Source: Lentisphaerae bacterium ADurb.BinA184 (lineage in GTDB: Bacteria; Verrucomicrobiota; Lentisphaeria; Oligosphaerales; MVZH01). From it: a stretch of 35,215 bases of DNA. The notes under the pieces are model-generated. The model was not told the origin of the DNA and ran no database searches. It worked only from the letters and a program-made list of their open reading frames with translations. Of the stretch, positions 31,055 through 34,799 are shown in pieces. The stretch's first letter is position 1. Every line of letters starts with the position of its first letter. Both the position numbers and the translations under genes were made by a program. Location of the stretch: assembly GCA_002068325.1 (NCBI GenBank), contig MVZH01000015.1:1-35215 (forward strand). The letters run 5' to 3'.

Positions 31055-31161
31055 CCGCAGCCACGGCCGACTGGCGGGCCGGATCGGGCGGCGCCGGGGA
31101 CATGGCCGGCGGTGGGGGAAGCCCTGCGCCGTCGTGGCCTGAGCGATTCATCAACAAGGAG

Positions 31162-31378
31162 AGGCGCTTGCAGAACCGCCGCGGACGACCACGACCTCGT
31201 GCGATGGAGGGCGGACCTCCGTGTCCGCCAGGTCATTCGTGAAGACTCGGTCTGCCGCGGACGAACCCGGACGACACGGAGGTCGTCCCTCCAGCTCGGC
31301 AGACGACGTCCCTATGGGCGCCGATGGAGGAGCCGGGCTCTGTCCCGGCCACGTGACGGGAGGTCCTGCCAGAGCCTC
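31162..31378 (+). mobile_element. Miniature inverted-repeat element, copy 1
   Basis: This is an approximately 217-bp non-coding element. The left end reads AGGCGCTTGCAGAACC and the right end GGTCCTGCCAGAGCCTC, its imperfect inverse (14 of 17 positions). The flanks carry the direct repeat AGGAG (31157-31161 and 31379-31383), a likely target duplication. Inside are two tight hairpins, GGCGGAC-CTCCGT-GTCCGCC and GGACGAC-ACGGAG-GTCGTCC, whose loops are complementary. Over the left ~127 bp it differs from the inverse of copy 2 at nine positions by my count; the rest is more diverged, and only the end with CTCTGTCCCGGCCACGTGA matches well. No transposase is encoded. It lies after the glycosidase gene, and with its surroundings fills the gap 31055-31542. 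Confidence 0.8.
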
Positions 31379-31468
31379 AGGAGGCAACGGGGATAGCGGA
31401 GGTATGTCTCATGGGTTCGCCGTGTCCTACGAACCACTGAGATCGCTGTCGGTTTCGACGCCGTCCAA

Positions 31469-31496
31469 CTGCATGCGGGGTCGTTACCCCCTGCAG
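31469..31496 (-). terminator. Hairpin downstream of fabI
   Basis: CTGCA and TGCAG flank a GGGG/CCCC stem with an internal loop. It lies about 50 bp past the fabI stop on the minus strand and has no T run. It is a possible terminator. The rest of 31384-31542 shows no gene I can support. Confidence 0.3.
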
Positions 31497-31542
31497 CGCA
31501 AAGCCTTCGTTTCCTCCGTCTCCTCTTTGTGGACAGTCCGGG

Positions 31543-32352
31543 TCAGGGGGCGCTGACCCGCCGCACGATGTCGCGGTCGAAGTAGTTGATGCTCATGCCG
31601 GCATCAACCACCAGCGTCTGGGCGTTGATGCCGCTGGCGCGCCCGCTGAGCAGGAAGGCGGCGGCGTGGGCGACCTCCTCGGTGGCCAGGCCGCGGCGGC
31701 GGGGGATGACCTTCTCGGCGTACAGGTAGGCGTCAGCGTAGCCGGGGATGCCGGCGGAGGCCGACGTCTTGAGCAGTCCGGCGCCGACGGCGTTGACGCG
31801 GATCTCCGAGTCCGCGCTCAGGGACTTGGCCAGGAAGACCACGGTGGAATCGAGGGCCGCCTTGATGGGGGCCATGTAGCCGTAGTTCTCGGCGGCCATG
31901 CGGGTGGTGGAGATCGAGATCGTCACCACCGAGGCGGTGCGGGACAGCAACGGGCGCAGGTGACGGACCAGGCTGACGAGCGAGAAGCACGAGATGTCCA
32001 CGGCCTGCAGGAAGTCCTCGCGGCGCGTCTCGTGGAAGGGGCACGGCCCTTGGGCATAGTTGGCGTAGGCGATCGAGTGCACAAGCCCGTCAAGCCGGAC
32101 GCCCGCGGCGGCGAGCTCGGCCGCCAGCCCGGCGATCTCGGCCTCGTTCTCGACGTTGCAGGTGAAGACCGGCGCGTCGCCGAGCAGCGGCCGCACGCGC
32201 TCACGCACCTCGGCGTCGCGAACCACATAGAGCACGCGCACGCCTTGCTCGGTTAGAACCTTGGCGATGGCGTAGGCGACGCTGCGGCGGTTGGCGACAC
32301 CGAGCACGGCGACGCTCCGTCCGGACAGGCCGAGGAAATCTGGGGATGCCAT
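31543..32352 (-). CDS. fabI: Enoyl-[acyl-carrier-protein] reductase (FabI type)
   Basis: This is a 269-residue short-chain dehydrogenase fold enzyme that should reduce the enoyl-ACP double bond with NAD(P)H in fatty acid elongation. The FabI-type cofactor site VAVLGVANRRSVAYAIAKVL replaces the ordinary SDR GxxxGxG. LVHSIAYANYA, the catalytic pair Y157 and K164 (YGYMAPIK, Y-x6-K as in FabI rather than Y-x3-K) and 'IRVNAVGAGLLKTSASAGIP' are present. An SDR-like assignment with a different substrate is possible but less likely. GGAG lies about 8 nt before the ATG. Confidence 0.88.
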   Translation of the reverse strand: MASPDFLGLSGRSVAVLGVANRRSVAYAIAKVLTEQGVRVLYVVRDAEVRERVRPLLGDAPVFTCNVENEAEIAGLAAELAAAGVRLDGLVHSIAYANYAQGPCPFHETRREDFLQAVDISCFSLVSLVRHLRPLLSRTASVVTISISTTRMAAENYGYMAPIKAALDSTVVFLAKSLSADSEIRVNAVGAGLLKTSASAGIPGYADAYLYAEKVIPRRRGLATEEVAHAAAFLLSGRASGINAQTLVVDAGMSINYFDRDIVRRVSAP

Positions 32353-32646
32353 GGCGGTTCTCCGCGGGTTTCAGGCGCGGCGGCGGCGATCGCGACTGTC
32401 CCGATGCGTGGCCTCACCATAGTCCCGCGGCGCGGTTCCGCCACCGGACGGCGCCGCCCACCTGGGCACGGCGCAGACGCTCTTAGCCGCTCCGTCCTTG
32501 CGGACCCCGCAACCCGGCCTGCGGGATGGCTGAATTGCGGAGGCGCTCGCGGCGGCCGGATCCGACGAGGGGCCCACCCAGACTGGAGCGACCGCTGGAC
32601 GCCCCGGTGGCCCCTTCCCGGCTGGCCGCGAGTATGGCGCATTGGT

Positions 32647-32684
32647 GAGTCACAACTAATTGGCCTACAATCAGTTGTGTACTC
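32647..32684. promoter_or_regulatory. Inverted repeat upstream of a PEP-CTERM promoter
   Basis: GAGTCACAACT and AGTTGTGTACTC pair over 11 positions with one bulged T; the loop is 15 nt. It lies 26 bp upstream of the -35 box. It is a good operator candidate, or the end signal of something to its left. The rest of 32353-32640 shows nothing I can name. Confidence 0.5.
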
Positions 32685-32710
32685 CTTTGAAAAATGGGTT
32701 GTGGCCGGGC

Positions 32711-32739
32711 TTGACAGAGCACGGCTCTTGGTGTAAAGT
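32711..32739 (+). promoter_or_regulatory. Strong promoter candidate for the second PEP-CTERM gene
   Basis: A perfect TTGACA (32711-32716), a 17-bp spacer and TAAAGT (32734-32739), followed by a leader of about 86 nt ending in GGAGGGG and the ATG at 32832. This is the best sigma70-like promoter in the window. Confidence 0.7.
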
Positions 32740-32831
32740 ATGATTAGGCTGTGGGGGGCGCGGCGCACTGCCGCACTCCGGTTGGTTTCGCTGGGGACTC
32801 GGAACACTCAAAACGGGGATTGGAGGGGTCA

Positions 32832-33545
32832 ATGAGAACGTTCGTCAGGATCGTGGTGGCCGCCATGCTGACCGCAACCAACGGCATGGCCTTCATGGTG
32901 GTGGATCGCGGATTGCCGACAATAAACCTCAACGATGCCGCCGGAGCCTACCGCTGCAACGTCAATTGGACTCTCGAAAACCAACCTTGGTATTGCGTGG
33001 GAGATCAAGTCACGCTGCCGACAGCATTCCCATATTACCTTGTCGATACCATTCGTGTATGGGTCGTTGGCGAATACACTGGCTTGGAGCTGTTTGTCGG
33101 GATAAGCGATGTTCTGCAGTCCTCGACAACCTACAGCGCGACTCAGGTCACATACGCCAATGGCGAGGGATATCAGGGTCAGAGCGGAGCGTTCCTGGAT
33201 ATGTGGCAACTGGATTTTGCCGTTGACAGGCGCGTACAGGGCGGCTCCGCCTTGAATTTTGCCTTGAAACCCGACTATGACTCAGACTATACGTTTCTAC
33301 TCGCTTCCAACGCCGCCTTGAGTGGTTCGCCGCAGGAGGGGGCGGATGATTTGTGGGGCTATTGGTACTGGGTTTCGACAGACCCTGATCGCTATGGGAT
33401 GGGTTTCTGGAGTTCAAAAGGGAATGGCTGGGACAAGAGCAGTGACATCAATGTCCAGGTATTTGGGCTTGGAGTTCCCGAGCCGGCCACCATGGCTCTT
33501 CTGGGCTTTGGCGGACTGCTGTTACTCAAGCGCAAGCGCGGGTGA
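32832..33545 (+). CDS. Small secreted PEP-CTERM protein
   Basis: This is a 237-residue protein. A signal peptide (RTFVRIVVAAMLTATNGMAF) is followed by a beta-rich, aromatic body with no domain I recognise (ALNFALKPDYDSDYTFLLAS, DDLWGYWYWVSTDPDRYGMG) and ends with the PEP-CTERM signal VPEPATMALLGFGGLLLLKR with KRG. It is clearly richer in A/T than its neighbours, which could mean recent arrival or a relaxed codon bias. GGAGGGG lies about 5 nt before the ATG. An in-frame upstream start is open to 32751 but lacks this site. It has its own promoter and a terminator. Confidence 0.85.
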   Translation: MRTFVRIVVAAMLTATNGMAFMVVDRGLPTINLNDAAGAYRCNVNWTLENQPWYCVGDQVTLPTAFPYYLVDTIRVWVVGEYTGLELFVGISDVLQSSTTYSATQVTYANGEGYQGQSGAFLDMWQLDFAVDRRVQGGSALNFALKPDYDSDYTFLLASNAALSGSPQEGADDLWGYWYWVSTDPDRYGMGFWSSKGNGWDKSSDINVQVFGLGVPEPATMALLGFGGLLLLKRKRG

Positions 33546-33572
33546 TGTGCGCGCATTTGCGTCGCCCTTGGG

Positions 33573-33610
33573 GGCCGCTCCGGGAGAGCCGGGGCGGCCT
33601 CTTGCATTTC
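33573..33610 (+). terminator. Rho-independent terminator after the PEP-CTERM gene
   Basis: An 11-bp stem (GGCCGCTCCGG with CCGGGGCGGCC, one U-G pair), a GAGAG loop, then TCTTGCATTT. It starts 28 bp after the stop codon. Confidence 0.6.
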
Positions 33611-33671
33611 GGGGAGGGGCGGCCACCTTCGGGCAGCGCCCGGCGCGCCAGGCTGGCCGGCCAGACACTGC

Positions 33672-33810
33672 ATGCGTTCGCCCGGCCTGATCGCGGAGGA
33701 GGAGGTCCGGGCCTACCTTCCTGCACCTGATCAACCAGCGGAGGGTCTCGCCCTCGACGGTGCGGGTGAACCTGGCGGGGGTGCGGTTCCTCCGCCGCCA
33801 ACTGCAGCAC
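33672..33810 (+). pseudogene. Tyrosine-recombinase N-terminal remnant
   Basis: The frame from ATG 33672 reads MRSPGLIAEEEVRAYL, then loses its sense. Dropping one base near 33716-33720 lets it continue as LHLINQRRVSPSTVRVNLAG and VRFLRRQLQ. Together this is the SAM-like (core-binding) domain seen in phage/IS-type integrases, which typically reads '...YLLHLxxxRxxSPSTxxxxLxxxRFLY'. No catalytic domain follows; the next sequence is low-complexity. So it is a truncated, frameshifted fragment. The rest of 33811-34111 has no gene I can support. Confidence 0.5.
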
Positions 33811-34111
33811 AGCCTGCCGCCGAGCTCCCGCCCAAGCCGCCGGCGTGACTGCGGACTCCGCGAAACGCCATGCCCCCTCCGCCGCGGAGCGTCGGAACCA
33901 CGCTTCCGGCGACGCCGCCTCTTGCCCGCACAGCCCCGCCGACGGCCGTCTTCTTCCGCTTGCCTATGCCGTCCCGACCCTCTATGGTAAGACCCGCCGG
34001 GTGGCGGAAAGCCGGCAGATCGCCCGGCCGGCGAAGGGATCCGTTGGACACGCGCTGAGCCGTCGCGCCGCGCCGCACAATCTCCGGTCGTTGGCCACAC
34101 GGGGCACGACG

Positions 34112-34799
34112 ATGGATATTCTTGACGAATTGAAGGCGGTGACCGTCAGACTCGACCAGGAGGGCATTGATTACGCGCTGTGCGGCGGATTGGCTATGGC
34201 CGTCTACAACCTCCCACGCGCCACCCTGGAGAGGCGCTTGCAGAACCTCTGCATCACGTGGCCGGGACAGAGGCCGGCCCTCCATGGCCACCGAAAGTGC
34301 CCCTTGTCTGCCCTTCTGGAGGGACGACCTCCGTGTCGTCCGGATTCGTCCGCGGCAAACCGGGTCTTCGCGTATGACCTGGCGGACACGGAGGTCCGCC
34401 CTCCATCGCACGAGGCCGTTGTTGTCCGCGGGGGTTCTGCAAGCGGCTCTGGATATTGACCTGCTGATCCAGGCTGACACCCTGTTCCGTGCCAGGCGGG
34501 CCGTTGAGCCGTTGGGATTCACTCTGAGCGGCGCCCCGATGGAGTTCCATGGCGGGAAGATCCAGATTCGTCGCCTGTGCAAGATCGCCCGTGACACTGG
34601 CGAACAGCTGATCCTTGACTTCCTGCTTGTGACCCCCGAGACGGCCGGGGCCTGGGAGGGTCGCCGGGAAGTTGAGTGGGAAGGGGGGGCACTCAAGGTA
34701 GTGTCCCCCCAAGGCCTGATCCTCTTGAAATCGTTCCGTCGAAGCGGGAAGGATCAGGATGACATCGAGCACTTGCGGAGTATCGCCGATGGAAGTTGA
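34112..34799 (+). pseudogene. Nucleotidyltransferase-fold gene split by a miniature element
   Basis: The 5' part (34112-34230) encodes MDILDELKAVTVRLDQEGID and YALCGGLAMAVYNLPRAT; the 3' part (34449-34799) encodes DIDLLIQADTLFRARRAVEP and continues to LKSFRRSGKDQDDIEHLRSI. Removing the 218-bp insert and one copy of CTGGA restores an unbroken frame with RATLDIDLL, the GG-x-A...DID-type signature of MNT/AbiEii-like nucleotidyltransferases that often act in two-gene toxin-antitoxin modules. The repaired product would be 154 residues. As it stands the insertion changes the frame and no full protein is made. The start is by ATG; the ribosome site is weak. The end overlaps a small ORF. Confidence 0.85.
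34231..34448 (-). mobile_element. Miniature inverted-repeat element, copy 2
   Basis: This is 218 bp, oriented opposite to copy 1. Its ends are GAGGCGCTTGCAGAAC (left) and GTTCTGCAAGCGGCT (right), with 12 perfect inverted terminal bases (CGCTTGCAGAAC). It is flanked by CTGGA on both sides (34226-34230, 34449-34453). The same two hairpins occur as in copy 1. It has interrupted the nucleotidyltransferase gene. No transposase is present, so mobilisation would need an enzyme elsewhere. Confidence 0.85.

Follow-up and report, generated by a model that had tools for sequence, protein, structure and literature searches.

The two inverted-repeat copies in the window, i.e., the whole stretch of 35,215 bp that was analysed (contig C15 of an assembly of 4.76 Mb and 575 contigs, 82% complete), very probably belong to a family of miniature inverted-repeat transposable elements (MITEs) that is present in many copies and would be mobilised by a transposase made elsewhere. 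The family has about 100 copies in this uncultured Lentisphaeria-type bacterium, comprises old as well as recent members and is active or recently active. This reading is supported by the terminal inverted repeats (TIRs), the copy number, 4-bp target-site duplications, varied flanks and near-identical copies, and in addition by perfect 4-bp (some 5-bp) duplications around short elements with the same terminus in the phylum. Counted against it were that no transposon with these ends was found in the sampled part of the window genome, whose PF01609 hit lacks the TIR and which has no PF07592 hit, and that the elements are as GC-rich (69.5%) as the genome itself, contrary to typical MITEs, which are AT-rich (PMC10969869).

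Element copies in the window and in its genome

Copy 1 occupies positions 31161-31378 (218 bp, reverse strand) and copy 2 positions 34231-34449 (219 bp, forward strand). The first-pass annotation had correctly placed two copies in opposite orientation, but its ends (31162-31378 and 34231-34448, about 217 bp) gave way to these exact ones. The copies are 86% identical over the whole element, with 189 of 220 aligned columns identical, 28 substitutions and 3 gap columns; the nine differences reported earlier over the conserved ~127 bp were counted again between the CTGGAGG block and the position just before the right TIR. Both copies carry the family TIR consensus GAG[G/C]CGCTTGCAGAACCC. Copy 2 starts with GAGGCGCTTGCAGAACC (34231-34247, forward strand) and finishes with the opposite TIR GAGCCGCTTGCAGAACC (34433-34449, reverse strand), and copy 1 has the same intact GAGGCGCTTGCAGAACC at 31161-31177 (forward strand) and a degenerate opposite TIR, GAGGCTCTGGCAGGACC, at 31362-31378 (reverse strand). 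This exact 17-mer occurs 80 times in the window genome and its reversed pattern not at all.

Copy 1 lies between two AGGA duplications (31157-31160 and 31379-31382) and copy 2 between two TGGA duplications (34227-34230 and 34450-34453), all read directly from the sequence, with the 4-bp length taken from the family. Earlier, these had been described as 5-bp duplications, AGGAG and CTGGA. However, as the element starts with GAG and finishes with CTC, one adjacent base can seem duplicated, and the extra base belongs to the element's own G or C ends. In a set of 49 elements whose ends were good, 48 could be evaluated; 20 of these had identical flanks at length 4, compared to only 2 at length 2, 1 at length 3 and 2 at length 5, and in a cross control flank 4-mers of different elements agreed in 9 of 2352 comparisons. 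Only length 4 is thus enriched, and the proposal that a 5-bp duplication points to a specific transposase class falls with the fifth base. A perfect 4-bp duplication was present at 29 of 79 paired elements in the sampled part of the window genome. The GC content of the perfect duplications was 45%, compared to 69% for the overall sequence, indicating that insertion prefers somewhat AT-richer targets.

Copy 2 (34231-34449) interrupts a reading frame which, read by eye, is putatively nucleotidyltransferase-like; a Pfam search with the two halves of this frame, taken separately, gave no match. Element and duplication together add 223 bases, by which the frame is shifted. A small secreted-type open reading frame with a terminal PEP-CTERM motif is located between the two copies (32751-33545), and a gene for a FabI-like enoyl-ACP reductase (31543-32352, reverse strand) adjoins copy 1.

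The family is numerous beyond the window. The exact pattern CGCTTGCAGAAC occurs 107 times in the window genome, compared to 0 for the reversed pattern, and at least 40 copies are near full length. Stretches picked from this genome for holding termini (0.98 Mb) yielded 79 unique paired elements along with 109 family-like intervals. The paired elements span 97-253 bp with a TIR of ~18 bp and fall into length classes near 99, 133, 218 and 252 bp. A further pair enclosing 1250 bp (L063:3090-4339) has weak ends, with 5 and 3 mismatches, around an ordinary MITE copy and was taken as chance. The median pairwise identity among 56 full-length copies is 82%, and copies 99.5% identical to copy 2 are found on two further contigs (C212 and C324) with different flanks, indicating recent movement. 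Generally, flanks vary among copies, except for neighbouring ones.

The elements are thus shorter than 500 bp with TIRs, have a target-site duplication, are dispersed in multiple copies and hold no transposase gene; at ~220 bp they are too short for a full one. Their GC content (0.695, compared to 0.694 for the sampled genome) does not show the AT-richness that is typical of MITEs, although not obligatory. The earlier view of a non-autonomous element with target duplications and without transposase is therefore supported by copy number, recurring duplications and differing flanks, and the genome search proposed at that time did return many copies with recurring 4-bp duplications. Neither of the outcomes that had been named as speaking against it was observed: the two copies are not the only ones within a longer duplicated block, as copies are numerous and flanks mostly different, and duplications are repeated at other sites.

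The same terminus in other genomes

Elsewhere in the phylum, the ends of the element are found again, its interior mostly not. None of 59 close relatives matched the element. The exact 17-mer was present in 3 of 198 genomes of the class and the exact 18-mer GAGNCGCTTGCARAACCC in 10 (~3%) of the 388 genomes taken from the phylum. At these other loci the 18-mer bounds short elements whose interiors are mostly unrelated and whose duplications measure 4 bp, in some cases 5 bp. Genome G005 is Lentisphaerae bacterium RIFOXYA12_64_32, as the terminus has equal coordinates on its contig C375 and on MHBL01000375.1; it belongs to the order of the window genome, hence the description of the host as Lentisphaeria-type. 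When one genome per species was scanned, 107 stretches with the terminus were obtained; some of the unpaired single matches among them can only be chance hits. A single terminus in genome G012 (L121) was taken as chance, since its locus holds no partner terminus. Paired elements with duplications abound in a MAG labelled Akkermansia muciniphila; they are also present in MAGs of Kiritimatiellae and Lentisphaerae and in single contigs labelled Mariprofundus and Neomarinimicrobiota. All labels were taken from the records and may reflect mis-binning.

A version of ~131 bp with two modules, in which TGGAGGGACGACCTCCGTGTCGTCC is identical to the window family, was found in two contigs, one of Kiritimatiellae (L252, with the duplication CTGA) and one labelled Neomarinimicrobiota (L288, with the duplication ACAT). 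That three distantly labelled MAGs have an identical hairpin module points to either transfer from lineage to lineage or a binning error. The MAG MiH-14oct19-36, labelled Akkermansia muciniphila (L217, L337-L366), holds many elements of 132-153 bp with the same TIR and perfect duplications; their interiors are long inverted repeats (TTCAGGTTTCAGG), and each end also forms its own hairpin. As one terminus with a nearly fixed duplication length is found across several classes, with differing interiors, it provides a sequence handle for a transposase search. The search for the same termini around a full transposon, as suggested by the first-pass annotation, led to other short elements but to no unambiguous full transposon, the sole candidate being an element of 2042 bp.

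Candidate transposases

We infer mobility in trans through a transposase of the staggered-cut type. Each MITE copy consists of two ~18-bp TIRs and internal hairpins with no recognisable coding content. In the proposed mechanism, a transposase supplied elsewhere would bind the GAG[G/C]CGCTTGCARAACCC ends. This enzyme would excise or copy the element, by cut-and-paste or copy-and-paste, and insert it at a 4-bp staggered cut, where gap repair would then give rise to the 4-bp duplication.

With about even odds, a conventional DDE insertion sequence (IS) serves as partner and is missing from the incomplete assembly owing to the collapse of multi-copy elements during short-read assembly. Several contigs terminate 75-85 bp within an element, as would fit such a collapse. 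Duplications of 4 bp are known from several IS families. Bacterial MITEs are thought to come mainly from IS (PMC10969869). However, no DDE insertion sequence flanked by the TIR occurred at any fetched locus of other genomes. PF01609 (DDE_Tnp_1) transposases, considered in the window genome and in Lentisphaerae bacterium RIFOXYA12_64_32 of the same order (G005), had no such TIR nearby, and the TIR was also absent around the PF07592 (ISAzo13) copies of three TIR-positive genomes (G017, G336, G435). In the window genome itself a search for PF07592 gave no hit. Its only PF01609 hit (L170, C1:49484-50293) lies between a different inverted repeat, GAAGCCGGTTGCGCTGTGGG, and hence represents a separate IS. 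In the MITE-rich MAG G454, no long element was located around any of the 30 termini examined.

It is possible, if somewhat short of probable, that the partner is instead of the type of the 2042-bp element and that the protein of 546 amino acids encoded by this element is an unclassified transposase moving the MITEs. The element is located in the Lentisphaerae MAG Loclat_bin-12951 (L263, CAITYL010000044.1, positions 72-2113), bounded by TIRs and the duplication AATT. Its right TIR is exact, and its left TIR has 4 mismatches but retains the CTTGCAAAAC core. The chance expectation for such a TIR pair is ~0.04 in the unpaired termini searched, based on a reversed-pattern control and a count of about 36 unpaired termini. 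In addition, MITEs of the same MAG have in common with it 27 bp at the right end and, at the left end, the CTCC...CCGGT signature. The open reading frame fills the element, and the C-terminal region of the protein is winged-helix-like; apart from weak winged-helix hits at this C-terminal end, there was no Pfam or NCBIfam match. A structure predicted without alignment was unusable (mean pLDDT 36), and viral contigs, phages, Rfam and PDB gave no useful match. It was also counted in favour that relatives of the protein are unnamed or named for the HTH alone, plasmid-borne and often decayed. Those on plasmids of Mycobacterium, Rhodococcus and the Burkholderia group show roughly 22-37% identity and are annotated as hypothetical protein, once as ArsR regulator.

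On the other hand, the 2042-bp element is known from one locus only, and neither the window genome nor the MAG G454, with its abundance of nearly identical MITEs, has a relative of the protein. Other members of its family are not bounded by the MITE TIR, and the ends of the Rhodococcus relatives look different: the left one bears a hairpin, the right one is constant, and a duplication is not visible. The element and its protein are therefore a lead from a single locus rather than a result. It appears rather unlikely that the family of this protein comprises transposases of a new kind, the ends of which serve MITEs across the whole phylum. Still, the terminus has already yielded one candidate without a named family.

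The protein family of ~500 amino acids on Mycobacterium and Rhodococcus plasmids (L325, L326, L327, L331, L367-L372) is unnamed. The constant right end, varied left truncations and hairpin left end of the Rhodococcus copies suggest an undescribed mobile element. On a Mycobacterium riyadhense plasmid, which carries the closest plasmid relative, an inverted pair of CTAGCCGCTTGAGGAT is located at and just after the stop codon (L325:4146-4221) and partly resembles the MITE terminus. AGCCGCTTG occurs near the right end of this relative, but sits in a local palindrome and has no left partner.

Internal hairpins and comparison with known systems

The interior of the elements is built from hairpin modules that follow a single plan: TGGAG, a stem of 7 bp, a CTCCGT loop and the stem complement. 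In copy 2, module A (TGGAG and GGACGAC, CTCCGT loop, GTCGTCC) is located at 34317-34341 on the forward strand and module B (TGGAG and GGCGGAC, CTCCGT, GTCCGCC) inverted to it at 34381-34405 on the reverse strand. A third module, C (34260-34284, reverse strand), is slightly degenerate and a weaker match, and the family consensus of C folds alike. Copy 1 has module B at 31205-31229 (forward strand), module A at 31269-31293 (reverse strand) and module C, as apparent from its sequence, at 31325-31350 (forward strand). Stems vary (GGACGAC, GGCGGAC, GGCCGGG) but each is matched by its own complement, an argument for the hairpin being maintained; copy 2 as a whole folds far more strongly than its own shuffles (DNA parameters, z = -5.0). 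Elements of the 99-bp class contain one module, C, those of the 133-bp class A and C, and those of the 218-bp class A, C and the additional B. The 252-bp members (L069:4469, L071:10050, L085:11595, L100:10896, L116:687, L116:3580 and L067:10583) possess an additional palindrome of ~34 bp (CCTGCCTG...CAGGCAGG). This palindrome sits, without duplication, at CTCCG^TGTC within the loop of a single module; most copies have it in the right hairpin, L067 in the left one.

REP and REPIN sequences of IS200/IS605-type RAYT systems have GGAG beside a hairpin and modules in inverted pairs. The 5' GGAG, the 7-bp stem, the constant CTCCGT loop and the inverted pairs of the present modules would fit such units moved by a Y1 (RAYT) transposase, with the TIRs being incidental. 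This is nevertheless very improbable: 147 modules were located inside TIR elements and 5 outside in the 0.98 Mb of the window genome, and all 4 modules in 767 kb of other genomes were inside, demonstrating that the modules do not move independently here. Moreover, the boundary of the duplication-flanked unit is the TIR. A segmental duplication or other immobile repeat, as might be suspected from the flanks common to some neighbouring copies (and expected for clustered copies), is refuted by exact 4-bp duplications at many unrelated sites and can practically be dismissed.

This leaves a genuine MITE family, in which the terminus common to several classes and the missing or unrecognised transposase are unusual. 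A literature search identified no description of this terminus. With ~100 copies the family is a major repeat of the genome, which fragments the assembly into contigs and disrupts reading frames. The ISAzo13 family (PF07592) has short duplications and G-rich ends, and is alike in these respects but absent from the window genome. The likeness to REP/REPIN lies in the GGAG with hairpin and the inverted pairs; in the present family, however, modules are not independent, and TIRs and a duplication belong to the unit as a whole. MITEAba12 of Acinetobacter (PMC6382973), a novel IS-derived non-autonomous element, also has TIRs and target duplications and is likened here by kind, not by sequence. In bacterial type II MITEs, similarity to the autonomous element is confined to the TIRs (PMC10969869). 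The window family shares with these a length below 500 bp, a TIR below 30 bp, a target duplication, the lack of a transposase gene and a hairpin-forming interior, but differs in being GC-rich instead of AT-rich and in having one TIR over several classes with mostly unrelated interiors.
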